A model generated the notes under the pieces. That model was not told where the DNA came from and did not search any database. It saw only the letters and a list, made by a program, of their open reading frames with translations. The translations under genes and the position numbers were made by a program. Shown here one piece after another: positions 16,098 to 53,136 of a stretch of 64,000 nt of DNA. Source of the DNA: Aliarcobacter skirrowii CCUG 10374 (GTDB lineage Bacteria; Campylobacterota; Campylobacteria; Campylobacterales; Arcobacteraceae); NCBI RefSeq assembly GCF_003544835.1, contig NZ_CP032099.1, forward strand, positions 1,054,001 through 1,118,000. Direction: 5' to 3'. The stretch's first letter is position 1; each line of letters opens with the position of its first letter.

Positions 16098-18113
16098 TTA
16101 TATTGTAATCTCTTTAATATCAGCTATATTTCTAAATCCTAAATATACTTGTGATATTAAATTTTTTCTATTTGTTTTGATTTTTTCATCTTCATGATTT
16201 ACAAAAACTTTTTCAAAAAAGTTATCAAGATTTGATTTTAATGAGAAAAGTGCATCAAGCTCTTCTTCAAAACTATCAAATTTTTTATCTTTGATTTTTG
16301 AATAATTTGCAAAAAGAGTTTTTTCTTCATCTTGCTCAAAAAGTCTCTCATCTACACTTAAATTACTATTTAAATCAACATCTTTAACAATATTTGCAAC
16401 TCTTTTAAATGTAGCACTATACTCTTTAAAACTATCACTTTCTACTATTGGATTTAAAGCCTCTACTTTTTGGAAAATTTTATATATATTTGACTCTTTA
16501 CTAGCTAAAACTGCTTTTAAAACTGTTGGATTTACATCAAAAATTTTAAATAGTCTATCATTGAAAAAATCTAATAAAACTTTTATATCAAGATTTTTAT
16601 AATTTACTTTTAAATCTTCTACTATAGTTTTAAAATCAATATTAAGTTTATGCTCAATAGCAATTCTTACTATTCCAAAAGCTGCTCGTCTTAGAGCAAA
16701 TGGATCTTTTGAACCTGTTGGAATTTTTCCAACACTAAACAAAGCCATAAGATTATCAATCTTATTTGACATTGCAACTATTGAAGAGAAAATAGAGCTT
16801 GGAAGCTCACTATTTTCACCAGTTGGAAGGTATTGCTCTTTTAATGCTAAACTAATTTTTTCATCATTTTTTGCAATTTTTGAGTAGTAATACCCCATAA
16901 GTCCTTGAAGTTCTGTAAACTCATAAACCATCTCACTCATTAAATCAGCTTTTGAAAGCATTACTGCTTTTTGAATTAGTTCAACTTCATTTACACCTAG
17001 TTTATTTGCTAAATAAGATGCTATTTTTGCTTCTCTTTCACATTTATCATAAACAGTTCCTAAACCTTCAACAAAAACAAGTTTTTTTAACCCTTCATTT
17101 GATAAACCATTTTTAATATCATTTTTATAAAAAAACATTGCATCTGCAAGTCTAGGTCTTAAAACCTTCTCATTTCCAGCAATTATATATCCAAAATCAT
17201 CTGTGAGAGCATTTGAAACAACTATAAAACTGTTTGTAAGTTTTCCATCTTTATAAACTGCAAAATATCTTTGATTTGCCTTCATAGATGTAACAATAAC
17301 TTCAGGTGGAAGAGTTAAAAACTCCTCATCAAATTTACCAATCAAAGCTGTTGGATACTCTGTAATTGCAACAACTTCATCTAAAAGTTCCATATCAAGC
17401 TCAATTTGAATATTGTGTTTAATCTCAATCTCTTTTAACTGCTTAAGAATCTTCTCTCTTCTTTCATCTTGATATAAAATAACACCATATTTATCAAGTT
17501 TACAAAAATAATCACCAACATCATTAAAAACAAATGGCTCATAAGATTGCATTCTATGACCATAAGATATATTTGAAGAATCAACTCCAAAAAGTTGTGC
17601 AGGAATAATCTCATTTTCAAGCATAACGCTTAAAAATCTAATTGGTCTTATAAAGCTATCACTTCTGCTTCCCCAACGCATAGATTTACCAAAATTAAGA
17701 GTTGATATAAACTCATTTATCATAGAGTTTAAAAGCTCTTTTGACTCTAATCCTTTAATTTGTTGTTTATAATATAAAACTTCACCTTTTCCAAAATCTT
17801 TAAACTCTAACTCATCTACACTTACACCACACTTTTGAGCAAAACTTTGTGCTGCTTTTGTAAAAGAGCCATCTTTAAAAGCTATAGCTTTTGGAGCTCC
17901 AATATTTTCAGCCTCAATATCATCTTGTTTTACTTTAAACTCTCTATGCCATAAAACTAATCTTCTTGGAGTATAAAAAAGTTCAAAATTGCAAAGTAAA
18001 CTATTTTTTTCTAAAATAGATTGCCATTTTTTTTCAATATTTGGAAGCTCTTGTAAAAATGGAATAGCTGGTAACTCTTCAACTCCAATCTCAATCAAAA
18101 GTGGTTTAAGCAT
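16098..18113 (-). CDS. glyS: glycyl-tRNA synthetase beta subunit
   Basis: A 671-residue protein with the N-terminal signature LLIEIGVEELPA, then RRLVLWHRE and GAPKAIAFKDGSFTKAA, later GKSMRWG with FIRPIRFL, and the internal PTGSKDPFALRRAAFGIVRI characteristic of GlyS. It is the tRNA-binding subunit of the heterotetrameric bacterial glycyl-tRNA synthetase; the alpha subunit (glyQ) is not in this window. The ATG lies inside the last codons of a 52-residue membrane-protein gene (8-base overlap), so translation is probably coupled. It belongs to the ribA-rsmG-glyS gene string. Confidence 0.95.
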   Translation of the reverse strand: MLKPLLIEIGVEELPAIPFLQELPNIEKKWQSILEKNSLLCNFELFYTPRRLVLWHREFKVKQDDIEAENIGAPKAIAFKDGSFTKAAQSFAQKCGVSVDELEFKDFGKGEVLYYKQQIKGLESKELLNSMINEFISTLNFGKSMRWGSRSDSFIRPIRFLSVMLENEIIPAQLFGVDSSNISYGHRMQSYEPFVFNDVGDYFCKLDKYGVILYQDERREKILKQLKEIEIKHNIQIELDMELLDEVVAITEYPTALIGKFDEEFLTLPPEVIVTSMKANQRYFAVYKDGKLTNSFIVVSNALTDDFGYIIAGNEKVLRPRLADAMFFYKNDIKNGLSNEGLKKLVFVEGLGTVYDKCEREAKIASYLANKLGVNEVELIQKAVMLSKADLMSEMVYEFTELQGLMGYYYSKIAKNDEKISLALKEQYLPTGENSELPSSIFSSIVAMSNKIDNLMALFSVGKIPTGSKDPFALRRAAFGIVRIAIEHKLNIDFKTIVEDLKVNYKNLDIKVLLDFFNDRLFKIFDVNPTVLKAVLASKESNIYKIFQKVEALNPIVESDSFKEYSATFKRVANIVKDVDLNSNLSVDERLFEQDEEKTLFANYSKIKDKKFDSFEEELDALFSLKSNLDNFFEKVFVNHEDEKIKTNRKNLISQVYLGFRNIADIKEITI

Positions 18114-22798: not shown

Positions 22799-23854
22799 CT
22801 ATTTGCCATACCCTTTCGGATTTTTACTTTGCCAATTCCAGCTAGATTTACACATATCTTCTAAATTATGTTTTGCTTCCCATCCTAAAATCTCTTTTGC
22901 TTTTTGTGAGTTTGAGTAGCAAGTAGCAATATCCCCTGCTCTTCTAGGAACTAATTTATAAGGTATTTTTTGTCCACTTGCTTTTTCAAAAGCTTTTATC
23001 ATATCTAAAACACTATATCCAGTTCCTGTTCCAATATTTAAAATAAGTGGAAATGAGACCTTAGTCTCATCTTTTTTATTTACAGGGACTAAAGTCCCTG
23101 TTCCAAAAAGATATTCTATAGCTTTTACATGAGCATTTGCCAAATCAACTACATGGATATAATCTCTTACTCCCGTACCATCTTTTGTTTCATAATCACT
23201 TCCAAATACACTTAGCTCTTTTAATTTACCAACAGCAACTTGAGAGATATATGGCATAAGATTATTTGGTATTCCATTTGGATTTTCACCTATAAGTCCA
23301 CTTTCATGTGCACCAACTGGATTAAAATATCTTAAAATAGCAATTTTAAAGCTATTATCACTTATATATAAATCCTCTAATATTCTTTCAATCATATATT
23401 TACTAGTTCCATATGGATTTGTAGTAGCTCCAACATCAAAGCTCTCATCTATTGGACAGCTTTTTGGATTTCCATATACTGTTGCACTAGAAGAAAATAC
23501 TATCTTTTTACAATCAAACTCACGCATCACTTCAAGCAGTTTAATAGTTCCTACAACATTGTTATCATAATATTTTAGTGGTTTTGCAACACTCTCTCCT
23601 ACAGCTTTTAGTCCAGCAAAGTGAATAACAGAATCTATGCTATATGTTTTAAAAACTTTTCTCAAAGCTTTTTTATCTCGTATATCACCTTTTACAAATT
23701 TAACTTTTGCTCCTGTTATTTTTTTTACTCTTTTTAGAGCCTCTTTTGAAGAGTTTGACAAATTGTCATAAACTACAAAATCAAAGTTTGCTTTTTTTAG
23801 TTCTATTAAAGTGTGAGTTGCTATATAACCTGCTCCGCCTGTGATAAGTATCAT
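22799..23854 (-). CDS. galE: UDP-glucose 4-epimerase
   Basis: A 351-residue extended short-chain dehydrogenase/reductase with the NAD-binding [10 protein letters not shown] motif, the catalytic YGTSKYM (YxxxK) and the GalE-type segments [24 protein letters not shown] and [13 protein letters not shown]. It interconverts UDP-Glc/UDP-Gal and probably the N-acetylated forms, supplying precursors to the surface polysaccharide genes that extend upstream. It is the last gene of the minus-strand locus and starts only 29 bases after mazF, so it is probably transcribed with the genes above it. Confidence 0.94.
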
Positions 23855-23883: not shown

Positions 23884-24216
23884 TTATATTTTTTCAAATC
23901 TATTACAAAGTATTTGTAAAATTTTTTCTTGTGTTTTTAAACTAGAGATAGTTGTCAGTTTTTTTACCAATCTTTCTTTAGAAATAGTTCTTATTTGTTG
24001 GCATAAAAGAATTGATGGTTTTTCTAATTCATGTTCTAAAAAAAGTTCATTTGGATATACTTTTCTTCCATTTTTCAATGAAGTTATTGGAATAATAGTT
24101 AAAATATCTAAAATATTTTCATATTCATTTGATATTATTAAAACTGGTCTTGTACCTTTTTGCTCTTTTCCTAAAGTAGGATTTAAATCTGCTAGATAAA
24201 TATCATATTGTTGCAT
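23884..24216 (-). CDS. mazF: MazF/PemK-family toxin endoribonuclease
   Basis: A 110-residue protein of the PemK/MazF fold: [27 protein letters not shown] at the N-terminus carries the conserved G-x-EQ-x-G-x-RPV loop with the catalytic Arg. The downstream ILTIIPITS (Thr) and [14 protein letters not shown] segments complete the RNA-cleavage site. It should cut mRNA at short motifs when its antitoxin is degraded. The gene directly follows the antitoxin gene with no gap. The pair sits between the sugar transferase and galE, splitting the polysaccharide genes. Confidence 0.88.
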
Positions 24217-24459
24217 CTATTTTTCTTCAAAATCAACATATTTAAAATCATTTTCTATATCTTCCATATCTTTAAGATAAAGTTTATCTTTAGAGGCTTC
24301 TATCATAGCTTTTTTATACTGTTCTTTTTTGTTTTTTTCAATAAGAAGCTCCAATGAAGTAGAAACTAATTCAGAAAAAGAACTATATTTTTCTGTAATT
24401 TTAGAAGATATTAACATATTATATAAATTATCATTTATTGTTACTGTTTTTCTTAACAT
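24217..24459 (-). CDS. ribbon-helix-helix-type antitoxin of the MazF pair
   Basis: An 80-residue protein whose first 45 residues (MLRKTVTINDNLYNMLISSK, then SSFSELVSTSLELLIE) match a ribbon-helix-helix DNA-binding unit. An acidic, disordered-looking tail (KDMEDIENDFKYVDFEEK) follows, of the kind that wraps and blocks MazF. It lies immediately upstream of mazF on the same strand with an AGGAG site, the classic antitoxin-first order. An inverted repeat upstream is a likely self-operator. The family name (MazE-like, ParD-like) cannot be assigned with certainty. Confidence 0.78.
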   Translation of the reverse strand: MLRKTVTINDNLYNMLISSKITEKYSSFSELVSTSLELLIEKNKKEQYKKAMIEASKDKLYLKDMEDIENDFKYVDFEEK

Positions 24460-24524: not shown

Positions 24525-25451
24525 CTACAAACCTTTTTTACCTAAAACCACCAAAATAGTTTTGTAAATAATCTTTATATCCAACCAAATGCTGTAGTGT
24601 TTTATATAGTACAAATCATACATAAGCTTTTGTTTTGCATCTTCAACACCAGCTCCATATGGATACATAACCTGAGCCCAACCTGTAATTCCAGGTCGTA
24701 CAAGATGTCTTTCATTGTAGTATGGAATCTCTTTTTCAAACTGCTCTATCCAAAATTTTCTCTCAGGTCTTGGACCAATTAGATGCATATCTCCTTTTAG
24801 TACATTTAGCATTTGAGGAAGTTCATCTATTCTTGTTTTTCTCATAATCTCACCCCAAGGAAAAACCCTAGGGTCATTTTGACATGCAAATTGTGCACCA
24901 CAAACTTCTGCATCTAGTCTCATACTTCTATACTTGATACACTTAAACTCTTTATTGTTTATTCCAACTCTTTCTTGCTTGAACATACTAGTTCCTGGGG
25001 ATTCTTTTTTGATTCTTCTTCTTGAATATGCCATGATAGGAAAAGTAAAAGCATATAAACAAAAAATTCCTAAAAAATCCATAACTCTTTTCATAGAGTA
25101 TTCAAAAATATTAAAAGGCTTGATATTTTGAAGATAGTTTAAATCTGTGTGATCATCTGGAATATAGCATTTGTGTAGATACTCTTCCATAAACTGCTCT
25201 ATAGTGATGAGTTTGATATTTCTTTCAAATTGTAAGTTTGTAAGGTATTTTATAACTTCATTTGGTACAGTATATCTTGTATTTAGTACAATAATTTTAA
25301 CTTTTGTTTTATCTAGCAAACACTTAAGCTCTTCAAGCACTTCAAATGGGTCTCTCTGTGAGTATTTGATAATAAACTGGTTTTTAAACTTTTTATTTAA
25401 CCTTGATTTTTCAAACTCTGTGAACTTGTATTTTCTACCTAAAACTATCAT
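24525..25451 (-). CDS. polyprenyl-phosphate sugar-1-phosphate transferase (PF02397 type)
   Basis: A 308-residue protein. The first 110 residues form a Rossmann-like N-terminal part, then one hydrophobic helix (LGIFCLYAFTFPIMAYS) leads into the bacterial sugar transferase domain with KQERVGINNKEFKCIKYRSM, RKTRIDELPQMLNVLKGDM and GPRPERKFW, the catalytic signature. Such enzymes load the first sugar phosphate onto undecaprenyl phosphate and start assembly of O-antigen or capsule repeat units. The five-helix membrane part of WbaP-type enzymes is absent; the layout resembles short PglC/WcaJ-like forms. Its upstream region is duplicated at 27140-27185. Confidence 0.88.
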   Translation of the reverse strand: MIVLGRKYKFTEFEKSRLNKKFKNQFIIKYSQRDPFEVLEELKCLLDKTKVKIIVLNTRYTVPNEVIKYLTNLQFERNIKLITIEQFMEEYLHKCYIPDDHTDLNYLQNIKPFNIFEYSMKRVMDFLGIFCLYAFTFPIMAYSRRRIKKESPGTSMFKQERVGINNKEFKCIKYRSMRLDAEVCGAQFACQNDPRVFPWGEIMRKTRIDELPQMLNVLKGDMHLIGPRPERKFWIEQFEKEIPYYNERHLVRPGITGWAQVMYPYGAGVEDAKQKLMYDLYYIKHYSIWLDIKIIYKTILVVLGKKGL

Positions 25452-25491
25452 TTTCTCTTCCCCATAAAATAAAGCTTGATTTTAACTAAAA
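25446..25491. repeat. direct repeat copy flanking the hipAB module (downstream copy)
   Basis: This segment spans the start codon and ribosome-site region of the sugar transferase gene. It recurs ungapped at 27140-27185 with 40 of 46 bases identical; the core of 31 bases (25461-25491, beginning CCCATAAAATAAAGCTTGAT) differs at a single base. The two copies enclose hipA, hipB and a gene remnant. Confidence 0.85.
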
Positions 25492-25566: not shown

Positions 25567-25653
25567 TTAGATATAAATTAGATTTTTTATCATATAGTTT
25601 TTTATAAAGTATGTTAATACAAAAGATAGTAAAAGTAAAATTATATATATCAT
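25567..25653 (-). pseudogene. N-terminal relic of a WbpL/MraY-type glycosyl-phosphate transferase
   Basis: A 28-codon frame starting 11 bases after the hipB stop, with AAGGA upstream of its ATG. It encodes MIYIILLLLSFVLTYFIKNY and a few more residues before a stop. This hydrophobic start closely resembles the first membrane helix of undecaprenyl-phosphate N-acetylhexosamine-1-phosphate transferases (WbpL/WecA/MraY family), which normally run to 300 or more residues. Just after it, in another frame, is a short open tail (NLYLRDLQKIVEIF then stop) that looks like the end of a different gene. I read this as a deletion scar; the family match rests on a short hydrophobic stretch. Confidence 0.5.
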
Positions 25654-25664
25654 CTATTTTTTCC

Positions 25665-25883
25665 TTATGTTCTAAATGGATTCGTTGGCTTAATATCTAT
25701 TTCATAGCCTAAAAGTGAAAGTATTTGATTGATTGTCACTATACTTATATTTGCTATATAGCCATTTTCTAGCTTTGATAAAGTCGCTCTTGAGATACCA
25801 GACTGCTCTGCCAATACTTCTTGAGATAATCCCTTTTGTTTTCGTAAATCTTTAATAGTTTTTCCAAGTTCTGATAATATCAT
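25665..25883 (-). CDS. hipB: HipB-like XRE-family DNA-binding antitoxin
   Basis: A 72-residue protein consisting of one helix-turn-helix: IKDLRKQKGLSQEVLAEQSG, then ISRATLSKLENG, a textbook Cro/C1-type pattern. The tail SLLGYEIDIKPTNPF is the strand that pairs HipB dimers. A TTG at 25889 is in frame, but the ATG at 25883 has AAGGAG seven bases upstream, so I use it. The gene overlaps the 3' end of hipA by 32 bases. The order is toxin first, antitoxin second, the reverse of E. coli hipBA. Confidence 0.85.
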   Translation of the reverse strand: MILSELGKTIKDLRKQKGLSQEVLAEQSGISRATLSKLENGYIANISIVTINQILSLLGYEIDIKPTNPFRT

Positions 25884-27057
25884 TATCAAGCTCCTTTATA
25901 CTAACTTCTTTAAGTGATAGTTTCCAGCTATCCAATATCATCTTAACAATTTTAAAATCTGGATATTCATTCAAATAGTTTTCAAGCTCATCTATACCCC
26001 AAATAAGTGCTTCATAACACTCTTTGTAATATTTGTTTGCTTCACTTTGACTCAATAGGCAACTTTTTTGTCCAAACTTAATAAGTGTATCTTTTGAATG
26101 CCATATCTTTTTACCATCAAGCATAAGTGCTGGTTTGTCTTTGTGTATATATACTACAGTATTTACCACATCATATACAGGAGAATAAAAAATATTTTTA
26201 AAATCATCATCAAACAACAATCCAAAGTTTTTAAGGTGTGCATCACCATTTTTAAGCAAATAATTCATTACTACAGTTTTATAAAAAGCTATCATAGATT
26301 CTTTTTTATTAGTAGTGTAGCTATAGATAATTTTTGCTATTTGCTCATAGCTACCATCATATTTGCTATCTTTGTTTTTATTTAGTAAAGATAATATCTC
26401 TTCAAACCCATAAAAACTACCATCATTTTTTAGTGTAAATTTTTCTACTATTAAAAACTTATTGTTTTGTGAAAGTTTTACATTGGCAGTTTTAACTCCT
26501 GCTTTTTCAACAGCTTTTAGGCAAAAGTATTCATTGAGAGCTAAGTCTTGATATTCATCTCCCCAAGTTTTGATGATGTATTCTTTGGTATCTATTTTTT
26601 CTTTATCTTTTAAAAGTGCTATTGTTTTTGGCTGAACTCCACTAATAGCATTTTTGTTTAAAAAAGTTTGAAGAAGATTATTAAAAGTATCATTTGTATC
26701 ATTAGATAATATCTCTTCAATATTAAACTCAGGAAACTCTACACTATTTTGCAAATCACTTTTAAACTCTATTCTTGAACTTATATTTGAGCTAAGAAGT
26801 GAAAATATAAGATAGTCATCTACCTTTCCATACTCTTTTGATAAAAGATTTTTAAATATATCATACAAATATCCTTCAGGTAAGAAACTCTCCAAAAAAG
26901 GTGGAAATTTATAGTCATACAGATATATTTTTTGAGTATTTGGCAATGATAGTGCTATGGAGTTTTTGATATCAAAATTTTTATAGTCTATTATAAAGTT
27001 TCTATTATCTTTAATAAATGATGCAACTGCTTTTTGATGGTGAAATATCTCTATCAC
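25852..27057 (-). CDS. hipA: HipA-family serine/threonine kinase toxin
   Basis: A 401-residue kinase. The N-terminal HipA_N-like region ends near residue 100. SGVQPKTIALLKDKE is the activation and P-loop-like segment, VEKFTLKNDG follows, and the catalytic loop is NGDAHLKNFGLL with a metal-binding YDVVNT. E. coli HipA phosphorylates glutamyl-tRNA synthetase and causes persistence; targets differ between families. The start is GTG at 27057 with AAGGA six bases upstream. With hipB it forms a compact module enclosed by 46-base direct repeats, inserted between two polysaccharide genes. Confidence 0.85.
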   Translation of the reverse strand: MIEIFHHQKAVASFIKDNRNFIIDYKNFDIKNSIALSLPNTQKIYLYDYKFPPFLESFLPEGYLYDIFKNLLSKEYGKVDDYLIFSLLSSNISSRIEFKSDLQNSVEFPEFNIEEILSNDTNDTFNNLLQTFLNKNAISGVQPKTIALLKDKEKIDTKEYIIKTWGDEYQDLALNEYFCLKAVEKAGVKTANVKLSQNNKFLIVEKFTLKNDGSFYGFEEILSLLNKNKDSKYDGSYEQIAKIIYSYTTNKKESMIAFYKTVVMNYLLKNGDAHLKNFGLLFDDDFKNIFYSPVYDVVNTVVYIHKDKPALMLDGKKIWHSKDTLIKFGQKSCLLSQSEANKYYKECYEALIWGIDELENYLNEYPDFKIVKMILDSWKLSLKEVSIKELDNDIIRTWKNY

Positions 27058-27066
27058 TTCGCTTCC

Positions 27067-27127
27067 TTGTATAAATTACTTTGCAATTATACTATAAAAG
27101 TTATATTTTGTAAAGTAAATTATACAA
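27067..27127. promoter_or_regulatory. large inverted repeat upstream of hipA, candidate HipB operator
   Basis: Two 20-base arms, 27067-27086 (TTGTATAAATTACTTTGCAA) and the reverse complement of 27108-27127, match at 18 of 20 positions, with a 21-base spacer. Each arm is itself an imperfect palindrome (TTGTA...TGCAA). Arm centres are 41 bases apart, about four helical turns. It directly abuts the hipA ribosome site, so HipB/HipA binding here would repress the module. Confidence 0.7.
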
Positions 27128-27139
27128 CTATTCACCATT

Positions 27140-27185
27140 TATCATTAACTTTATCCCATAAAATAAAGCTTGATTTTAGCTAAAA
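27140..27185. repeat. direct repeat copy flanking the hipAB module (upstream copy)
   Basis: This segment lies between the stop of a glycosyltransferase gene and hipA and matches 25446-25491 at 40 of 46 positions. It still contains the ATGATA that begins the sugar transferase gene in the other copy, here followed after a few codons by a stop. It is therefore a relic of the 5' end of the downstream gene. Confidence 0.85.
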
Positions 27186-27211
27186 ATTGCTAATAAAGTT
27201 AATTATAAAAA

Positions 27212-28111
27212 CTAAAATATTCCAAAAATAAACAAAATGAACAAAAAGATTTTCTCTTTCTTATTTCGTCTAAACTCAAAACTATATTTTAAAAGCAAAA
27301 GATTATTTAGATAACTCTTATTTAAAATATATTTAGAAAATTTATATTTATTTTCCAATCTTAAAACTTTTATAATCTTTATTATCTCTTCTCTATACCA
27401 ACTTGACAAAACTTTTTTAAGTCTTTTTAGTTTGGCTTTCAAACCATCATTTGCTCCAACTTGATTTGAAGTGTGTTGTCTATATCTCATAGATGGTTTT
27501 TCATCTATATGCCACTTGTAGTTATTTTCTCTTGCAAATGCATATATAAACCAATCATGAAGTTCTACTTTATTTACTTCTTCCCAATTTTCACAAATAA
27601 ACTTTTGAAGAAAAATAGCTAAATCTTTTTTTAACACATAAGTACATCCAGGACCAGCTGCCTCAAATATATAATCATATCTAGCTTGTAAGCTTGATTT
27701 ATTTATAATCATCTCTTTGCCATCTTCCCAAAATGCCAAAACATTGCTAGAGTAAGCATCTATTTGTTTATCTTTTATAGTATTAATAGCTCGGATAAGT
27801 TTATCATCATACCAAATATCATCTTGATCTACAAAAGAGATAAAATCGAAAGAACTAAAATCTACATCTCTTATAAGTCTAAAAAAGTTTTTTCCAGCTC
27901 CTCCAAATTTTGAACCACTAGGTAGATAAACTATATTTTTAAAATCTTTATAAATATCTTGTAAATATTCAATAGTTTTATCTGTAGATAAATCATCACT
28001 TATAAATATAGTAACATCTACTTCTTTTTGATTTAAGATACTATCTACCTGTTCTTTTATATATTTTACTCCATTGTATGAAGCTAATAATACTGCTATT
28101 TTTTTATGCAC
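27212..28111 (-). CDS. family 2 glycosyltransferase
   Basis: A 299-residue GT-A enzyme: IAVLLASYNGVKYIKEQVDS is the nucleotide-binding start, SDDLSTDKT the first acidic motif and FVDQDDIWYDDKL the metal-binding DxD-type loop. HDWFIYAFARE may position the acceptor. A hydrophobic stretch at the C-terminus could tether it to the membrane. It resembles rhamnosyl- or galactosyltransferases of O-antigen clusters, but donor and acceptor cannot be read from sequence. It overlaps the next upstream glycosyltransferase gene by eight bases. Confidence 0.87.
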   Translation of the reverse strand: MHKKIAVLLASYNGVKYIKEQVDSILNQKEVDVTIFISDDLSTDKTIEYLQDIYKDFKNIVYLPSGSKFGGAGKNFFRLIRDVDFSSFDFISFVDQDDIWYDDKLIRAINTIKDKQIDAYSSNVLAFWEDGKEMIINKSSLQARYDYIFEAAGPGCTYVLKKDLAIFLQKFICENWEEVNKVELHDWFIYAFARENNYKWHIDEKPSMRYRQHTSNQVGANDGLKAKLKRLKKVLSSWYREEIIKIIKVLRLENKYKFSKYILNKSYLNNLLLLKYSFEFRRNKKEKIFLFILFIFGIF

Positions 28112-29039
28112 TTTTATCCTTTTTCTTCTTTCTATAATCTCTAAAGATATTTAATATAAATTTTGGAAAAAATAAACCTATAACTAAACATGTTGAAATT
28201 ATAAAACTTTTTCCAAATACTTTAAAAGAATCTTTTATATAACTATTTAAATTCATATTCATTCTTGCATAAAGTATATGCAATAAAAAAAACTTTATAG
28301 AGTACATCTTGAGTTTGAAATAACTATAATTTATTTTATTCAATAACTCTTCATATTTTAAATAATTTTCAAAGTTTATATGACTTGATGCTTCTGCATT
28401 ATCAATCACATATATTGATGTTTGTTCTGAAGAAAATGCAAATCCTTTATTATTTGCTATTCTTGCCCAAGTTATCATATCTTCAAAATTTTTCATACCA
28501 AGTGGAAATAAATTATTATTCATAATATTTTTTTTGACACAAACACTAGATGAATTAATAAAACCATTACTAATCAAAGAAACTTTAAAATAATCGACTA
28601 TTCCTATATAATTTTCATAATCTGATAATTTTGGAAAAATAAATTTTCCATTTTGGAATTGTTTTGATGCATTGGAAAACATATCAACTTTATCAGAATA
28701 TATGTCTATCAAATTAACAAAATTTAATAGATGATTTTCTTCCCAATAATCATCTGCATCTAAAAATGCAATATAATCATAAGAAGAATTTTTTACTCCA
28801 TAATTTCTTGTTGATGAAACACCTGAATTATCTTTATTAAACAATTTAAACTTTTGTTTTATTTCTAAATTTAATTTTTCTATAAAATTTTCTACTACTT
28901 CTTTACTATTATCTGTTGAACCATCATTTACAATTACTACTTCATAATCTTGATAATTTTGATTTTTAATTGAATTTAATGTTTTTAATATACACTTGTT
29001 TTTATTATATAAAGGTATTACTATAGAAAATCTTATCAT
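28104..29039 (-). CDS. family 2 glycosyltransferase
   Basis: A 311-residue GT-A enzyme with FSIVIPLYNKNKCILKTLNS, the nucleotide-binding VVIVNDGSTDNSKE and the DxD loop AFLDADDYWEENHL. A C-terminal segment has membrane or amphipathic helices (SFIISTCLVIGLFFPKFILNIF) followed by a basic tail, suggesting attachment to the inner membrane. It overlaps the downstream glycosyltransferase by eight bases, so they are co-translated. It acts in building the polysaccharide repeat; the specific linkage is unknown. Confidence 0.87.
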   Translation of the reverse strand: MIRFSIVIPLYNKNKCILKTLNSIKNQNYQDYEVVIVNDGSTDNSKEVVENFIEKLNLEIKQKFKLFNKDNSGVSSTRNYGVKNSSYDYIAFLDADDYWEENHLLNFVNLIDIYSDKVDMFSNASKQFQNGKFIFPKLSDYENYIGIVDYFKVSLISNGFINSSSVCVKKNIMNNNLFPLGMKNFEDMITWARIANNKGFAFSSEQTSIYVIDNAEASSHINFENYLKYEELLNKINYSYFKLKMYSIKFFLLHILYARMNMNLNSYIKDSFKVFGKSFIISTCLVIGLFFPKFILNIFRDYRKKKKDKSA

Positions 29040-40688: not shown

Positions 40689-40779
40689 TTATTACTCCTT
40701 GTATTTTATAAGTAAGTTTCGCACTGTTTATATACCCACCATCTCTTAGAGTACAGTCTAATATTTGTATTTTATTCAC
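40681..40779 (-). pseudogene. 5' relic of a DRE-TIM-type aldolase gene
   Basis: A 32-codon frame from GTG at 40779 reads VNKIQILDCTLRDGGYIN and then diverges and stops at the next gene's start. ILDCTLRDGGY is the hallmark N-terminus of DRE-TIM metallolyases (HMG-CoA lyase, 4-hydroxy-2-oxovalerate aldolase and relatives), which are 250-500 residues long. Everything after the first strand has been deleted. The GTG overlaps the stop of the KAP NTPase gene. The original enzyme probably worked with the HpcH-type aldolase next to it. Confidence 0.8.
40759..40778. repeat. short direct repeat of the aldolase start (downstream copy)
   Basis: Twenty bases at the aldolase start match 42903-42922 at 17 positions. 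Aligned codons read (V/M)NKIQIL here and (L/M)NEIQIL there, two of the three differences being synonymous. The copies lie on either side of the KAP NTPase gene. Confidence 0.6.
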
Positions 40780-42877
40780 TTTTACTTTCCTCTTTTAATA
40801 CTAATTTCAACTCTTTTCCAAAGTAATTGTGTAAAGAATAATCTTCTTTTTGAAGTTTATATTCTGTACTATCATCTATAATATTATCTATTTCTATACT
40901 ATATTTTTTTAAAAATTCATTTATCTCTTCAAAATATAATATTTCTATCAATACTTTTCCTAAATCTATTTTTAATTTTTCATAAAATTTATCATAAATT
41001 AATTTTCTAATATCATCTGCTAAATCTTTATTTTTCAAAACAATATTTTGAAAGAAAAATCTATCATCAAACAGTTCATTTAAGATATTTACAATATCAT
41101 CTTTTTCTTTTTTCTCTAACAAATAGTCAAAATATTTTTCTAATAATACTTTAATAGTATTTTTATTTATAAGTAATTCTACTCTTGGAAATGGGTTAAA
41201 CTCTTGAAATATTTTATTTATAAATACTTTAAATATATCATCATCTTCTTTTAGATTTAAAAGTTTATCTATATTTTCATCTTTTACTAATGTATCAAGA
41301 TAGTATCTTTTTATTACAATTTTTTCTAGTATTTCTTCATAGTTTAGGTTATTTTTATTTTTTATTATTATCTCAATAACTTTGCCTAGAAGCTCTTGCT
41401 TTTTTTCATTATAATTATAAACATATGTTAAGAAATTATCTAAAAATTTTGATTTATGCTCTTTTAATTCTAGTTTTTTTAGATAATTATGGATAATTGT
41501 AAAATCTTCTAATATATTTTCAAATATCTTATTGCTTATATCATAATCATTTATTTTGTAGTTTTTGTATATCTCTAGATAAAGTTCATCAAAAGTTGAT
41601 AAATGAGATTTTAGCAGTTTTAGTAAATTTTCAGTTTCTTTTGAAATATTTTCTAAGTATTTTTCATCTTTTATATTGATTAGTTGTAAAATACCCAACA
41701 AATTATTTTGAGTGATTAAGTAATTATAATCTTTAAAATTCATAGACTTTATAATATTTATAATATATATAAATCTAAAAGATATAAATACTTTCCAATC
41801 ATCTCCATGTGTATTTTTTAGGTGTTTTACAAAATTGTATGTTTCATTGAAACTACTTTTAATAACTCTAAATGTAGGCACTATTTCCAAAATATTTTTT
41901 TCATAATGATTTGCAAAAGAACCTTGATTTAAAAGTAAATTTGTAAATTCTTCATTTGAAATAAAATTTTTAGTTTTTGGGAAAATATAATTTTTAAAAT
42001 ATCTTAAAATATCGTTTTTGTCTATTGGGGCTAACTGATATTTCATATTAAAAATTTTATGTATATACTCAATGTCCAGATTTTCTATTTTTTCTATTTG
42101 TTCTAAATCAAGTGCTGTTATTGTAACAATATTATCAAACGATGCTGTATATCGAATAATTTTAAATATATCTACAATCTCTTTGCTGTCGTGAAGTCTA
42201 TCTACTTCATCGATTAGCAGTAGTATTTTTTTATCTTTAAGAGTTTTTTTCAACAAAATATTAAATCTATCTTGTGAGTTTTTTATTGTTTGTTCAAAAG
42301 GAAGTGTAATAACAAAATCACTTTTTGATATATATTTTGAAGATAATCTAAAATAGTTTGAAAACAATAAAGATTCAAATAGATTTTTAAACCATAAAAT
42401 CTTGTTTTCTTTGAATAGAATATTGTCTATCTCTTTTTTTATCTCATTTAAAAGATTATTACTATTTTCTAGTTGCCAAGTATTTAAATATATTGTGTGA
42501 TATTTTTGTTCTAGTTCTTTTTTGATAGCTTTGAGAGTTGAACTTTTACCAGCTCCCCAAGGTGCTGTTAATGCAATAGAGAAAAACTTATCTGATTTAT
42601 GACTATCTAGTATTTGTAAAATAGGTTCGATTTTATCTTTTTGTAGGTCATAATATTCTTCATCATCTAACATTTCACTATCATTAGTTTTATTTTTAAT
42701 ATTTTCATTTCCACTACACAAAAATTTATATATAAAATAAATAATAATTGAAAATATTGAAGAATAAATTATTATCTCTTTTATATAAAATGGATTATTA
42801 AGAAAATAATTTATTGTTTCTTTTATAAATAGAAGTAGAATAATTAAAATAAATAATTTAATAAATAGTGTTTTCAT
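40772..42877 (-). CDS. membrane-anchored KAP-family P-loop NTPase
   Basis: A 701-residue protein. Two hydrophobic helices near the N-terminus (about residues 4-19 and 35-54) are followed by the NTPase: Walker A APWGAGKSS (Lys111), TIYLNTWQLENSNNL (the conserved Trp segment of KAP proteins) and Walker B ILLLIDEVDRLHDSKEI. TITALDLEQIEKI is the sensor region. KAP NTPases typically carry membrane helices inserted near the P-loop; here they lie before it. The C-terminal 350 residues are helical and unrecognised. Related proteins occur in phage-defence settings. It has no obvious role in sugar synthesis. Confidence 0.82.
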   Translation of the reverse strand: MKTLFIKLFILIILLLFIKETINYFLNNPFYIKEIIIYSSIFSIIIYFIYKFLCSGNENIKNKTNDSEMLDDEEYYDLQKDKIEPILQILDSHKSDKFFSIALTAPWGAGKSSTLKAIKKELEQKYHTIYLNTWQLENSNNLLNEIKKEIDNILFKENKILWFKNLFESLLFSNYFRLSSKYISKSDFVITLPFEQTIKNSQDRFNILLKKTLKDKKILLLIDEVDRLHDSKEIVDIFKIIRYTASFDNIVTITALDLEQIEKIENLDIEYIHKIFNMKYQLAPIDKNDILRYFKNYIFPKTKNFISNEEFTNLLLNQGSFANHYEKNILEIVPTFRVIKSSFNETYNFVKHLKNTHGDDWKVFISFRFIYIINIIKSMNFKDYNYLITQNNLLGILQLINIKDEKYLENISKETENLLKLLKSHLSTFDELYLEIYKNYKINDYDISNKIFENILEDFTIIHNYLKKLELKEHKSKFLDNFLTYVYNYNEKKQELLGKVIEIIIKNKNNLNYEEILEKIVIKRYYLDTLVKDENIDKLLNLKEDDDIFKVFINKIFQEFNPFPRVELLINKNTIKVLLEKYFDYLLEKKEKDDIVNILNELFDDRFFFQNIVLKNKDLADDIRKLIYDKFYEKLKIDLGKVLIEILYFEEINEFLKKYSIEIDNIIDDSTEYKLQKEDYSLHNYFGKELKLVLKEESKSE

Positions 42878-47259: not shown

Positions 47260-48081
47260 TTATTTTCCTAATTTTTTTATAGTTGGATTATTTATTAAAG
47301 ATTTCATCTGAGATATTGCCATACTATTTAGCACTAGCAATCTATCAGCTTGTTGCATACCTTGCTTTATAAGTTCTGCATTTACACTTTCCATATTTGA
47401 AAGCACGATAAGCTGTTCTACACTTGCATAATCTCTTATATTTCCATCTTGCTTTGGATTATTTTCTCGCCACTCTTTTGCTGTTTGTCCAAATAGTGCA
47501 ATATTTAATACATCAGCTTCAGTTGCATATACAAATCCATCTTTTGGTTTTGAAAGTATACTTGGGATAAGATGCTCTTTTATAGCATCTGTGTGGATTT
47601 TATAATTTATTTTAGAAAGGCTTCTACTCAAGTTCCATTCTAATGATTTATTTTCTATCTCTTCATTTTTGAGTCTTTGAAACTCTTTAATTAAAAATAG
47701 TTTAAATTCAGCACTAATCCAACTAGCAAACTCAAACGCTATATCTTTATGAGCAAAAGTTCCACCATATCTTCCAGATTTACTAATAATTCCTATTGCA
47801 TTCGTTGTTTCAATCCATTTCACAGGTGACATTGTAAAACTATTAAGACCTGCAGAATTTTTAAACCCGTCGAATTCGACCCCTTTAAAATCTGGATTAT
47901 TTATTTGTTCCCAAAGCCCTAAAAACTCTATTGTATTTTTATTTCTTAACCAATTTTTTACCACATCTTTTGGTTCATCAGAATTTTTTGCTCTTGCAAT
48001 ATCTGTAAGAGATATAAAATCCTCTTTTTCATGCTGACGAATAGAGATTAAAGTTTCTTGAACAATGAGTTTGTTATTCAT
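47260..48081 (-). CDS. KilA-N domain DNA-binding protein
   Basis: A 273-residue protein with an N-terminal KilA-N/APSES-type fold: KEDFISLTDIARAKN, VVKNWLRNKNTIEFLGLWE, then SPVKWIETTNAIGIISKSGRYGGTFAHKDIAFEFASWIS, read here in pieces. The second half is helical (EFKLFLIKEFQRLKNEE, NGNIRDYASVEQLIVLSNMES-like) and probably mediates dimerisation. KilA-N proteins are typical of phages, plasmids and mobile islands. It lies between rmlD (four-base overlap) and rmlB (one-base gap), so it is translated within the sugar operon although it has no sugar role. Confidence 0.82.
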   Translation of the reverse strand: MNNKLIVQETLISIRQHEKEDFISLTDIARAKNSDEPKDVVKNWLRNKNTIEFLGLWEQINNPDFKGVEFDGFKNSAGLNSFTMSPVKWIETTNAIGIISKSGRYGGTFAHKDIAFEFASWISAEFKLFLIKEFQRLKNEEIENKSLEWNLSRSLSKINYKIHTDAIKEHLIPSILSKPKDGFVYATEADVLNIALFGQTAKEWRENNPKQDGNIRDYASVEQLIVLSNMESVNAELIKQGMQQADRLLVLNSMAISQMKSLINNPTIKKLGK

Positions 48082-49541: not shown

Positions 49542-50432
49542 CTATTTCATCCTTCTTGGTTGATTTGCTCTAGAGATTAAATATTGACCATATTGGTTTT
49601 TCTTTAGTGGTTCTGCAAGTTCAAGAAGTTTTTCTTTACTTATATATCCCATTTCATATGCTATCTCTTCAAGACAGGCTACTTTTAGGCTTTGTCTATT
49701 TTCAATAGTTTGAATAAATGATGATGCTTCAAGTAGTGATTCATGAGTTCCAGTATCAAGCCAAGCGTACCCTCTTCCCATTAGTTCTACTTTTAATCTA
49801 TTTTCATTTAGATAATCTTGATTTAAAGTTGTGATTTCTAGCTCACCTCTGTCACTTGGTTTTACATCTTTAGCTTTTTTTACTACATCATTTGGATAAA
49901 AGTATAGTCCTACAACAGCATAGTTTGATTTTGGCTCTTTTGGTTTCTCTTCAATAGAGATTACATCACCATTTTCATTAAACTCTGCAACTCCATACCT
50001 TTGTGGATCACTTACATAATAACCAAATACAGTTGCTTTATTTTCATCTTTAATATTTTTTATGCTTTTGGCTAAAAGTTCAGTTAATCCATGACCATAA
50101 AAAATATTATCACCTAGAACTAAACAAGCATCATCACCAGCTAAAAACTCTTCACCTAAGATAAATGCTTGAGCTAAACCATCAGGGCTTGGTTGAACTA
50201 CATATTCAAACCTCATTCCTAAATCTTTTCCATCTCCTAGAAGATTTATAAAACTAGCTTGATCTTGAGGAGTTGTAATAATAAGAACCTCTTTAATACC
50301 AGCAAGCATTAAAACAGACAAAGGATAATATATCATAGGTTTATCATAGATTGGAACTAGTTGTTTACTAACTCCTTTTGTGATTGGATAAAGTCTTGTT
50401 CCACTTCCCCCTGCTAATATTATCCCTTTCAT
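49542..50432 (-). CDS. rmlA: glucose-1-phosphate thymidylyltransferase
   Basis: A 296-residue nucleotidyltransferase with [20 protein letters not shown] (G-x-G-x-R-L and the Lys region), [29 protein letters not shown] and [17 protein letters not shown]. It makes dTDP-glucose, the common precursor of the rhamnose and 3-acetamido-sugar branches. It overlaps the regulator gene by four bases and is the first biosynthetic gene of the long minus-strand locus. Confidence 0.94.
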
Positions 50433-50749
50433 ACTATTTCACTCCCTACTTTTTTTAAAATTTCAAGCTCTTTTTGAAGCTCATCATACTCAGCTTTTTT
50501 TATAGCAATAAACTTCTCTGTAATCTCTATTTTCTCTTTGATACCTTTTGGCGTAAGTAGATATTTATATTGGATTTTATTTTCTGAGTTTACAAATCTT
50601 TGAGTTTTTATAAGACCTTTATCAATTAAGTTTTTAAGTACATAATTCACTTTCCCCAAGCTATAGCCTATCTCATCTGCTATTGTTCTTTGGCTTGTGA
50701 CTTTATCTACACTTCTTAGAATCTTTAGTTCTATCTCTTCTTGATTCAA
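50429..50749 (-). CDS. MarR-type EPS-associated transcriptional regulator
   Basis: A 106-residue winged-helix protein: [40 protein letters not shown] with the recognition helix, [22 protein letters not shown] forming the wing, then a C-terminal coiled coil. It matches the small MarR-like regulators that precede exopolysaccharide and O-antigen operons. It probably controls, or antiterminates, the rml and downstream genes. The start is a TTG; the AAAGGGG upstream is rather far, so the start is less sure. Confidence 0.78.
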
Positions 50750-50789
50750 AATCTTAATTCCCCTTTAAAAATTGAGTTTGAAATATACA

Positions 50790-50808
50790 GTGTTTAATCT
50801 TTGAACAC
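50790..50808. promoter_or_regulatory. inverted repeat upstream of the polysaccharide operon
   Basis: GTGTT and AACAC with a 9-base spacer lie about 40 bases before the regulator start in the 94-base gap between the HTH gene and the polysaccharide operon. It could be the operator of the MarR-type regulator or part of the operon promoter. The arms are only five bases long. Confidence 0.4.
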
Positions 50809-50843
50809 TCTTAAAATTTAATTATATTTTTTTAATTTTTTAT

Positions 50844-51116
50844 CTATTTAAATAGTTCTTCATCCTTGATTTTTAAAATATCTTGAATATCTTCAATACA
50901 ATCAAGCCCTCTTAAAACATCAATAAATTTTTCTAAACTTATTTTCCCACTAATCTCAAACTCTTGATAACTTCTAAAACTCATTCCTATATGTTGTGCA
51001 AACTCTTTTTGAGTACCGTATGTTTCTATATTTTGTTTTCTTTTTCTTTTTGCTCTAGAAGCGAACTCTTTGATTATCTCTTGAGTTGTTGATAAACTAA
51101 AATCTATATCTCTCAC
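50844..51116 (-). CDS. XRE-type DNA-binding partner of the second HipA protein
   Basis: A 90-residue protein with a helix-turn-helix around TQKEFAQHIGMSFRSYQEFE, preceded by a basic linker (SRAKRKRKQN) and followed by SLEKFIDVLRGLDCIEDIQD. It starts at GTG overlapping the HipA stop by four bases (GTGA), so it is coupled to the kinase gene. As in the first module, the antitoxin-like gene follows the kinase gene. The protein is not similar in sequence to the hipB at 25.7 kb, so the two modules are independent acquisitions. Confidence 0.78.
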   Translation of the reverse strand: MRDIDFSLSTTQEIIKEFASRAKRKRKQNIETYGTQKEFAQHIGMSFRSYQEFEISGKISLEKFIDVLRGLDCIEDIQDILKIKDEELFK

Positions 51117-52393
51117 TTTTTTATTTCCTTACTAAAGTTATCATCTATTATTTTTGTTTCATTTAAAATATGATTTGCTAAATTTTTAGGTATATCATAA
51201 TTTATAAATTCTTGAACTAATTTTTTATGCTTTATATCTATCATTTTTTCTATATTTTCTTTTAAAAATGACTCTTTAATATTGTATGGTTCAAAAGCAT
51301 TTTTTAAATCTTCAAATAAAGCTCTATTTAAAACTTTATTTCCAAGCAGCATTTGATGGTATCCATTGCTTGTATATGTCAAATCATAAGCAGGTGCAAA
51401 ACTCCATTTCCCTTTGCTATTCATTAAAAACGAAAAGTTTTTTGAATGATCATCTTTGTTTCCAAAAATTGCATTAAATAAGATTACTTTTACAATATCT
51501 TCTTTATCTTTTTGTGATAAATTAAGCTTTAAAGATATTCTAAACATATCAATAAAATCATTATATGTTTCAGCTGGATTATAGTGCATCATGCCAGATA
51601 AAGAGTGAATATGAAATCTTTCATTATCTTTCAAATCAAATCTATAAGTTAAAAAATGGGTTCGTCCTTCTTGTTCTAGCAACTCACAAGGACTTATATT
51701 AACACCAGACTCTTTTGCAAATAAGTAATACAAATACTCCAATTTTGTAGCAATAGAAGCATCTTTGTATTTATTTGACAAAGTTGGATACATTGATATA
51801 TCTTGGTCATCATATTTTATAATCACAGGATAGTAATCTTTTGGAAAATCTCCTTGTTTTCTAGTTAAACTTATTGTCTTGTCTTTAGGATTAAATCCAA
51901 CAATTGCTTTTGATCTAGCACCTCCACCAGCAGAGTTTGAAACAGCAATAAGTGTTTTAAGAGTAAGTATAGAGTTATTTTCTTTTTCATTTTCTTGATT
52001 TAAAATTTTTTTAGACTCTTCATAAACTTTTGATATATTTAAAACTTCTTTATACTCTTCTGCTTCTAAAGAAGGATGAAATTCTAAAGCACCTAAAGTA
52101 TGAGTTCCTAAAAATTGTAATCTTTCAAAAATAGTGGGTTTTCTTTTTAGATATTGAAACATAAAACGATCTAAATAATTCATACCATAACTTCCAGGTA
52201 AACAATCACTTATCAAGCCTGGGAGTCCATATTGAAAATCAATATGGGAAAAATTATAGACTTGTCTATTTTTTATAGGCATTTTAATTGGTGAGAAATC
52301 AAGATTGTTTGAATCTAAATATTTAAACTTTATTACACCTTTATACTCTACTAACTGTGCTATATCTTTTTTCCAAGCTTTTATAGTAATCAT
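51113..52393 (-). CDS. HipA-family serine/threonine kinase (second module)
   Basis: A 426-residue HipA protein: GLPGLISDCLPGSYG in the N-terminal subdomain, SNSAGGGARSKAIVGF as the Gly-rich activation segment, HFLTYRFDLKDNERFHIHSL, catalytic loop FGNKDDHSKNFSFL and metal site FAPAYDLTYTSN. An upstream ATG at 52411 is in frame, but AAAAGGA lies six bases before the ATG at 52393, which gives the MITIKAW start. It forms an operon with the XRE gene. Longer and more canonical than the 25.9 kb HipA, it may have a different target. Confidence 0.87.
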   Translation of the reverse strand: MITIKAWKKDIAQLVEYKGVIKFKYLDSNNLDFSPIKMPIKNRQVYNFSHIDFQYGLPGLISDCLPGSYGMNYLDRFMFQYLKRKPTIFERLQFLGTHTLGALEFHPSLEAEEYKEVLNISKVYEESKKILNQENEKENNSILTLKTLIAVSNSAGGGARSKAIVGFNPKDKTISLTRKQGDFPKDYYPVIIKYDDQDISMYPTLSNKYKDASIATKLEYLYYLFAKESGVNISPCELLEQEGRTHFLTYRFDLKDNERFHIHSLSGMMHYNPAETYNDFIDMFRISLKLNLSQKDKEDIVKVILFNAIFGNKDDHSKNFSFLMNSKGKWSFAPAYDLTYTSNGYHQMLLGNKVLNRALFEDLKNAFEPYNIKESFLKENIEKMIDIKHKKLVQEFINYDIPKNLANHILNETKIIDDNFSKEIKK

Positions 52394-52415
52394 TGAAATC
52401 CTTTTATACATTTAG

Positions 52416-52453
52416 AATGTATATTCTATCATATTTTTATGATAATATACATT
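52416..52453. promoter_or_regulatory. inverted repeat upstream of the second hipA, candidate operator
   Basis: AATGTATATTCTATCAT (52416-52432) and ATGATAATATACATT (52439-52453) are complementary except for a two-base insertion, with a 6-base centre. The repeat lies 23 bases upstream of the hipA start, where the XRE protein should bind to repress its own module. Confidence 0.6.
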
Positions 52454-52505
52454 ATTAGAGTATATTTATATTTAATTGCATTATACTACACAAATATAGT
52501 ATCTG

Positions 52506-52679
52506 TTAAATCTTAAATACTTTTTTGTGCATATTCAATATAGAATTTCCTAAAAAATATGATAAATGTCCATATTCAGAATTAACCTGAGCATGTTTTA
52601 GAAAAACAAGATACAAAGCTTTATTTTTTTTATTAATCAAAGGAGGAATATAACCTATTTTAATACATTGAGCAGCCAT
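52506..52679 (-). pseudogene. 57-codon frame, probably a C-terminal fragment of a lost gene
   Basis: A frame from ATG at 52679 encodes MAAQCIKIGYIPPLINKKNK, then ALYLVFLKHAQVNSEYGHLSYFL split over a few more residues. It stays open upstream of the ATG for about 13 codons without a better start, and no good ribosome site precedes it. It has the look of the end of a larger protein rather than of a complete one. I cannot name the family. It lies in the 460-base stretch between hipA and the antitoxin gene, which otherwise holds the inverted repeat and a toxin fragment. Confidence 0.35.
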
Positions 52680-52715
52680 TATTATTCTTCGGTTATATCG
52701 TAAATTGTAAGTTTT

Positions 52716-52847
52716 TTATTTTTTTAGGTAGTTTTTTATAATATCTTCTATTTCTTCATCACTAATACTATCTTTTTGAGTTTTCGAGTAAATTGAGATT
52801 AATACAATACTATTTTCAACTTGATAATATATAATAACTCTAAATAT
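52716..52847 (-). pseudogene. C-terminal fragment of a RelE/ParE-type toxin
   Basis: Directly after the antitoxin gene, a 43-codon frame without a start reads FRVIIYYQVENSIVLISIYS, then KTQKDSISDEEIEDIIKNYL before the stop. The RVIYY...ILLISIYSK...K-SDEEI pattern is that of the C-terminal half of RelE/ParE-type (HigB-like) toxins of about 100-115 residues. The N-terminal 60-70 residues are missing. The toxin is therefore broken while its antitoxin remains. Confidence 0.7.
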
Positions 52848-52854
52848 TCAATAT

Positions 52855-53136
52855 TCAAAGTTCATCCCATAACTTATCAATTTTTTTAGTTTTTCCATTT
52901 TTAACATCATCTAAACCAATTTGAATAGAGTCTATGATTTTTTTTGCTTCAATCTGTTTTAAAGCTTCTTTCATATTTTCATACTCATCTTTAGAGATAA
53001 TTACTGCTTCAACCTTATTATTTTTTAAAATTGCAAATTTTTCTACAGTGTTATCTTTTATTTGTGCTAAGTATGTACCGAACTTTTTTGCAAATTCTGA
53101 TGATGGAATAAGTTCATTTGTAGAATATGTTACCAC
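52855..53136 (-). CDS. Phd/YefM-family antitoxin (orphaned)
   Basis: A 93-residue protein with VTYSTNELIPSSEFAKKFGTYL, then FAILKNNKVEAVIISKDEYENMKEAL, the DNA-binding and dimerisation fold of Phd/YefM. A C-terminal tail (IDSIQIGLDDVKNGKTKKID) would cover a toxin. The start is GTG behind AAAGGAG six bases away. The toxin gene that should follow is truncated, so this is now a free-standing antitoxin that could still repress its own promoter or neutralise related toxins. Confidence 0.83.
   Translation of the reverse strand: MVTYSTNELIPSSEFAKKFGTYLAQIKDNTVEKFAILKNNKVEAVIISKDEYENMKEALKQIEAKKIIDSIQIGLDDVKNGKTKKIDKLWDEL

Follow-up and report, generated by a model that had tools for sequence, protein, structure and literature searches.

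Reversed gene order, with the kinase gene ahead of its antitoxin gene, is a recurrent theme among the Hip kinases. In the excerpted text of Gerdes et al. (2021, PMC8262856), several independent reversions of gene order are reported, and tRNA synthetases are listed as the targets of characterized HipA and HipT (Table 1 of that paper). The toxin-first hipA-hipB pair on island GI21 of Shewanella putrefaciens CN-32 arrests growth, is neutralized, represses itself and stabilizes the island (PMC8978831). We describe hipA2-xre2, a new member of the toxin-first HipAB family, from a window of 64,000 nucleotides of the Aliarcobacter skirrowii CCUG 10374 chromosome (the whole stretch analysed; genome G000 below); the pair itself is of an ordinary, known kind.

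As in the excerpted description of GI21 (PMC8978831), the toxin gene comes first and an XRE antitoxin second, with a gene spacing of 4 bp and a place in an exchanged segment. The GI21 antitoxin, likened here without sequence comparison, has 152 aa and a C-terminal HTH whereas Xre2 has 90 aa, and GI21 is an excisable island whereas hipA2-xre2 lies in a sugar locus, where no integrase was seen next to it. The module likewise shares its reversed order and predicted HTH antitoxin with the hipAB subclades of clades VI and VII and with HipE (clade IX), as these appear in the excerpts of PMC8262856. That kinase-first, antitoxin-second arrangement of the reversed hipAB subclade recurs in the family, the partner gene lying downstream of the kinase in 15 of 15 distinct HipA2-family ORFs (window's ORF counted). 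The nearest plasmid relatives, borne by the Arcobacteraceae plasmids pACLO (A. cloacae) and pACIB (A. cibarius), have a HipA 63% identical to HipA2, the toxin first and the partner immediately downstream; they differ in their plasmid setting (the pACIB copy lies beside replication genes) and in a partner of 125 aa annotated 'hypothetical protein'. The module resembles E. coli K-12 hipBA in its HipA domains, its kinase residues, a gene overlap (1 bp in E. coli) and a predicted HipB-like HTH, but in E. coli the antitoxin gene comes first and HipA is only 20% identical. E. coli hipBA has more than one operator, with half-sites TATCC-N8-GGATA; hipA2-xre2 too has more than one predicted operator, with different half-sites.

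The hipA2-xre2 module

51113-52411, minus strand, hipA2 ORF, full-length HipA-family Ser/Thr kinase
50844-51116, minus strand, xre2, 90 aa, GTG start, GTGA overlap of 4 bp with the hipA2 stop
50429-50749, minus strand, marR_eps, MarR-family EPS-associated regulator (TIGR04176, MarR_EPS, 115.3 bits; cut-off 88)

The ORFs, their 4-bp overlap and the Pfam domains of HipA2 (HipA_C, 131.9 bits, cut-off 30.5; Couple_hipA, 30.8 bits, cut-off 22.5) bear out the preliminary description of a HipA kinase with an overlapping downstream XRE gene. The hipA2 start is probably the ATG at 52393, giving 426 aa, because AAGGA lies five bases upstream and the equivalent Met begins the ORFs of four relatives (L006, L008-L010). 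Residues K193, D314, N319 and D337 are invariant in an alignment of five Hip kinases, E. coli HipA among them, where they match its kinase lysine (K193), catalytic Asp/Asn (D314, N319) and Mg-binding Asp (D337). The predicted HipA2 structure was too poor to use (pLDDT 45). Its Couple_hipA domain and the lack of a small gene directly upstream set HipA2 apart from HipBST, as its partner gene and a HipH model score of 32.2 bits against a cut-off of 401 set it apart from HipH/YjjJ. A search of the whole genome with PF07804 found two HipA genes, both inside one 27-kb stretch of the window.

The partner, Xre2, is best read as a HipB-like HTH antitoxin. Its match to HTH_3 (17.2 bits) falls under the Pfam cut-off of 23 bits, and a profile search of PDB sequences gave E values of 0.7-1 at best. 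In a Foldseek search of the PDB with an AlphaFold2 model (11 sequences, pLDDT 79), HipB of E. coli, Pseudomonas and Shewanella were among the best matches (probability ~1, E 0.06-1.2); the top match was a Vibrio regulator (E=0.034), and no match had E <0.001.

Downstream, marR_eps is the next gene after xre2 on the same strand and leads the sugar operon, so the position just upstream of the polysaccharide operon that had been claimed for the module is confirmed. The marR_eps DNA is 97.0-98.6% identical in genomes G022, G023 and G024. In G024 a stretch inside the sugar operon (L045, 11343-11438) repeats the window's marR_eps leader (50729-50826) at 79%, possibly through recombination or as a regulatory element.

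Predicted operators and promoter

52405-52423, minus strand, predicted operator box 2, TATAC-N9-GTATA, 11 bp before the start codon
52446-52464, minus strand, predicted operator box 1, TATAC-N9-GTATA, 41 bp from box 2
52480-52509, minus strand, predicted promoter, TTAACA-18-TATAAT, 11/12, the region's best match, overlapping the stop codon of a fic remnant

An inverted repeat had been described at 52416-52453. A more fitting reading is two tandem 19-bp palindromes, whose facing inner halves form that repeat. The motif TATAC-N8/9-GTATA occurs twice in the window, both times in the hipA2 leader, against 0.17 occurrences expected and two in 1 of 100 shuffles. A two-box pair with at most 2 mismatches of 20 is present in 9 of 13 family upstream regions (equalled by no more than 1 of 200 shuffles), these regions not being independent, as those of G000, G022 and G024 are near copies; the pair is weaker in G018, G002, G019 and L083, where 7 to 68 of 200 shuffles were as good. 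The G000 leader stood out in the two-box test but not in a plain best-palindrome test, where 24 of 60 shuffles did equally well. From this pattern we infer that the palindromes are putative autoregulatory operators. The predicted promoter should be taken as a consensus match only, because such sites are no commoner than in shuffles (24 found overall versus 20.8 expected).

Two HipA modules of separate origin

25852-27057, minus strand, hipA1, the other HipA of the window, toxin-first and in a separate clade
25665-25889, minus strand, xre1, module 1, HipB/Y4mF-like antitoxin (51.5 bits with the couple_hipB model, under its cut-off of 71.65)

Both modules are toxin-first and they lie only ~24 kb apart, as duplication in place might have left them. 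HipA1 and HipA2, however, are 24% identical over 202 residues, and no alignment was obtained between Xre1 and Xre2. A tree was built from 54 Hip kinases, the 57 distinct ORFs less three fragments. HipA2 belongs there to a clade of 13 rows and HipA1 to one of 12 rows (each 100/100), and the HipA1 clade is nested in a starred 15-row group outside which HipA2 lies; some long rows are unsurely placed, above all E. coli HipA and HipH. The whole modules are also found in different relatives, HipA2 (98% identical) in G022 and G024, and HipA1 (97%) in G013. The tree thus refutes duplication, to which we give practically no credence: the sister relationship that would have argued against the two independent gains proposed earlier is absent, and the separate clades, unalignable partners and different carriers uphold that proposal.

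The tree requires gene order to have changed at least twice on starred branches, which agrees with the reversions described in the excerpts of Gerdes et al. (PMC8262856). Of 12 HipA1-family ORFs, 11 have their partner downstream; for L039 no partner was found. An apparent in-frame TGA in HipA1 homologues is, in L044, an ordinary stop, the match running into the overlapping XRE gene; ORF length and overlap are the same in L041 and L042. G002 was considered as an empty site for hipA1 and set aside, its leader being too diverged for a clean insertion signal.

A block shared with other Aliarcobacter species

50846-52690, minus strand, transferred block, 98.9% (G024) and 99.2% (G022) identical DNA, both ends sharp
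52506-52690, minus strand, fic remnant, some 60 codons from the 3' end of a Fic/DOC gene with its stop, lacking the catalytic motif
52855-53136, minus strand, Phd/YefM antitoxin gene (Pfam 32.6 bits, cut-off 29.8)

As shown by sequence comparison, the hipA2 module arrived as a block by recent horizontal transfer between Aliarcobacter species, because the block is far more alike in G024 and G022 than are the longer (>1 kb) chromosomal matches of the window to these same relatives, which stand at 79-87% DNA identity (one 562-bp match, 71%). The upstream end of the block falls inside the Fic gene, which is truncated in the window and whole, directly upstream of hipA2, in G024 (L046, 15477-16412; Pfam Fic 59.9 bits) and G022 (L049, 1691-2626). 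Downstream of xre2, G024 has a second fic on the opposite strand before marR_eps, and G022 a Mutator-family transposase. Beyond the fic remnant, no intact toxin was seen beside the Phd/YefM gene. A 36-codon fragment (52716-52826) was considered as a RelE remnant or decayed toxin and rejected, tblastn over the fetched loci giving no convincing match (best E 0.43).

Other parts of the window show similar contrasts in identity. The RHH-mazF pair has 95.0% identical DNA in G024, against the 79-87% of the longer chromosomal matches, and hipA1-xre1 (25665-27215) is 93.9% identical to G013, against 79.8% for galE and 74.8% for the sugar transferase in that genome. Over the whole window, five stretches of at least 150 bp are at least 92% identical to any fetched foreign locus: RHH-mazF, hipA1-xre1, a glycosyltransferase (27243-28124; 96.6%, G014), marR_eps and the hipA2 block. 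Just below this threshold come galE (91.7%) and the sugar transferase (91.9%), both to G016. Foreign loci were fetched around such genes, and the identity contrast is therefore one with their neighbours and not with a random sample. The toxin-antitoxin genes are not the sole shared pieces, since marR_eps, one glycosyltransferase, galE and the sugar transferase are also highly identical.

The HipA2 family is not confined to sugar loci: at 6 of 9 family loci (G036, G026:C1, G018, G002, G019, G050) no neighbour like the window's sugar genes was seen. Two of 444 matching plasmid records reached at least 60% identity, and the pACIB HipA-family protein is identical to a protein of G002. Among 50,697 phage records three matched, each at <60% identity. 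Near the hipA2 homologue in G018 and G019 lies a HipBST-like set, a HipT-size kinase preceded by a 108-aa gene and an XRE gene:

L055, 6401 to about 7940 (G018), HipBST-like set
L057, 5920-7456 (G019), HipBST-like set

A further homologue (76%) sits at L085, 1859-3148. Its metagenome bin carries the label Helicobacter pylori PMSS1, but the nearest bin to L085 in the tree is one of Arcobacteraceae, so that label or binning may be at fault. On a larger scale, segment 4403-1452 is reversed in G022 and G024 and joined directly to 53187, which points to an inversion and a ~49-kb insertion in the window, ending beside the hipA2 module. BLAST between the ends of this insertion found no long repeat.

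Toxin-antitoxin genes at the joints of polysaccharide loci

22799-23854, galE, beyond hipA1
23884-24459, minus strand, RHH-MazF pair (RHH 24217-24459, below cut-off; MazF 23884-24216, PemK_toxin 85.1 bits, cut-off 23.1)
24525-25451, sugar transferase, beyond hipA1
25446-25491, minus strand, sugar transferase leader, 46-bp copy of 27140-27185 (87%)
25567-25653, minus strand, WbpL-like remnant, 28 codons and stop, like the start of the transferase after slot B in G022/G024 (71 bp at 84.5%)
27128-27157, minus strand, epimerase remnant, 9 codons and stop of the NAD-epimerase preceding slot B in G022/G024

Three joints were compared among relatives: slot A, upstream of marR_eps; slot B, between the NAD-epimerase and a WbpL-like transferase; and slot C, from the sugar transferase to galE. 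For slot A, 9 of the 12 places with an over-cut-off marR_eps were inspected (G005, G008 and G025 left out). It holds hipA2-xre2 in the window and, accompanied by two fic genes, in G024 and G022; G026 has a distant antitoxin-first hipBA (35% identical) there and G016 a phage-integrase-family gene; in G023, G012 and both G030 places no toxin-antitoxin gene was seen. In slot B, G024 and G022 carry YefM-RelE behind a hipA1 scar that consists of the promoter and 11 codons, G014 carries RHH-MazF and YefM-YoeB, and G020 carries YefM with a MazF-like gene. This occupancy (4/4) is biased upwards, G014 and G020 having been picked for YefM hits, and their epimerases give a weak BLAST match only. At slot C all 14 Bac_transf places were inspected. 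galE is next to the sugar transferase in five (window's included), and in 5/5 of these toxin-antitoxin genes lie between: RHH-MazF in G000 and G009, RHH with a broken MazF in G023, YefM-RelE in G016 and Phd-PIN in G013. At the remaining nine, neither visual inspection nor BLAST with the modules already identified revealed such a gene next to the transferase. Pfam cut-offs are missed by several small antitoxins (RHH, and Phd of G013) but passed by their toxins.

As comparison of these loci shows, toxin-antitoxin pairs of different families replace one another at a few joints of exchanged polysaccharide loci. Many of the modules at the joints are broken: fic, and a Phd lacking an intact toxin, in the window, hipA1 in G022 and G024, relE in G013 and mazF in G023. 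In G013 an array of hipA1-xre1-YefM, with relE cut after about ten codons, lies away from epimerase and WbpL-like genes. In the window, an epimerase end, a WbpL-like start and a repeated leader flank hipA1-xre1, from which the hipA1 cassette appears to have been carried from an epimerase/WbpL-type locus into the present one; it lies between direct repeats, since the leader at 25446-25491 copies 27140-27185. The earlier picture of two HipA modules bracketing one sugar locus holds in part: the sugar transferase, RHH-MazF and galE lie beyond hipA1, so there is no clean bracket.

A literature search, mostly without subscription journals, yielded no toxin-antitoxin pairs at polysaccharide-locus joints, judged by titles and abstract starts among the matches listed, and none are described in the excerpts of the reports on Leptospira (PMC3493377) and C. 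jejuni HS:19 (PMC8743553). A second sugar locus of G022 carries a Phd-PIN pair (L123, 6298-6910), its antitoxin just under the Pfam cut-off. glyS (glycyl-tRNA synthetase beta; window 16098-18113, minus strand) borders polysaccharide genes in G023, G026 and G030 and is near such genes in the window and G024, a chromosomal anchor for sugar loci.

Association with sugar genes across genomes

On complete chromosomes, 3 of 30 HipA genes lie within 5 kb of sugar markers (among the markers listed), two of them the window's own; outside the window's genome the count is 1/28, versus 0.67 expected (same distance, chromosomes and markers). With drafts included, 5 of 64 HipA hits (67 rows, three fragments dropped) are within 5 kb of sugar genes, namely the window's two and those of G024, G013 and G026. 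A genus-wide association of HipA with sugar genes was thus rejected, not being significant once the window's genome is left out. For Phd/YefM, the one antitoxin family tested, 6 of 19 hits are near sugar markers versus 0.48 expected (19 of the 32 over-cut-off hits, those on complete chromosomes; markers listed), and in genomes not inspected beforehand (G000, G016 and G024 left out) 3 of 14 versus 0.32 (P=0.0035). In these tests the sugar markers are those among the matches listed and some genome sizes are rounded. A single-copy core glycosyltransferase of ~850 aa was excluded from the markers as not a sugar locus, and no HipA or Phd/YefM hit lies within 10 kb of it. The repeated recruitment suggested in the preliminary description stands as a local pattern of toxin-antitoxin genes at such loci, and not for HipA as such.

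Role of the module

It is quite probable, in our judgement, that hipA2-xre2 is a toxin-first HipAB-type toxin-antitoxin module acting as a mobile passenger, possibly a stabilizer, of an exchanged surface-sugar locus. Going by what is known of the family and by the Shewanella pair, HipA2 may be expected to be toxic and neutralized by Xre2, and the module to be autoregulated and stabilizing. The operon would be transcribed from a promoter just behind the fic stop codon, and Xre2 would be translated by coupling from the start that overlaps the hipA2 stop. Xre2 would bind HipA2 and shut down its toxicity, and together the two proteins would bind the tandem operators and shut down transcription. 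The module would be kept as a passenger, in a locus that undergoes strong diversifying exchange, and its service to the cell, if any, would most likely lie in punishing loss of the carrying segment.

How far such service goes is where the readings part. A locus that recombines so often that any landed toxin-antitoxin pair spreads, the pairs being useless to it, is a serious contender whose chance we put a little below even: modules decay and replace one another, HipA itself is not enriched near sugar genes, family members also occur on plasmids and where such sugar genes are lacking, and other genes of the sugar locus are shared at high identity. What such a locus explains less well is that two joints held some toxin-antitoxin genes in the loci seen (5/5, and 4/4 chosen with bias). 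Re-occupation of the joints by such genes favours a guard role, just as the frequent decay of modules and the high identity of other locus genes favour a passenger; strong addiction is disfavoured, because many joint modules are broken or lost. A bolder version, that the joints (upstream of marR_eps, epimerase/wbpL and sugar transferase/galE) are fixed sockets in which an occupant is selected and penalizes loss or swap of the block, so that the modules shape which serotype exchanges survive, seems to us doubtful, perhaps one chance among several.

Two readings that give the module work of another kind fare worse. Surface sugars are phage receptors, and growth-arresting modules might abort infection by phages that pass the coat. 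The operon does hold a KAP-family P-loop NTPase in mid course (40775-42877, minus strand) and a KilA-N protein (47260-48081, minus strand; PADLOC candidate PDC-S22 at 450 bits), and the excerpts of Gerdes et al. (PMC8262856) suggest abortive infection for some Hip kinases; HipA2, however, matches PADLOC models weakly (best 29.4 bits, candidate PDC-M03A), and we hold anti-phage defence to be unlikely. Less probable again, and only slightly credible, is control of marR_eps and the sugar genes by Xre2 or by read-through: the genes share a strand, with 94 bp from xre2 to marR_eps and no terminator-like site found there, but in G024 the opposite-strand fic intervenes and in G022 a transposase follows xre2, while marR_eps keeps its own conserved leader, the same in G023 and G016 without the module. 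The KilA-N gene lies within the rfb gene run, and G023 has it at 98% identity with the same rfb genes on either side.

As a probable passenger and possible stabilizer, then, the hipA2 module is of interest less for itself than for its setting, in which toxin-antitoxin pairs time and again occupy joints of exchanged surface-sugar loci. HipA2 defines a toxin-first family, so far seen in Campylobacterota, whose antitoxin lacks an annotation and whose putative operator is clear. The role of chromosomal toxin-antitoxin pairs is an old open question on which this locus bears: several pairs have been gained, broken and exchanged at a few joints, and the scars order some of the events. The joints thus offer a natural series in which addiction and passenger readings predict differently, both for joint occupancy and for loss of the locus after removal of a pair.
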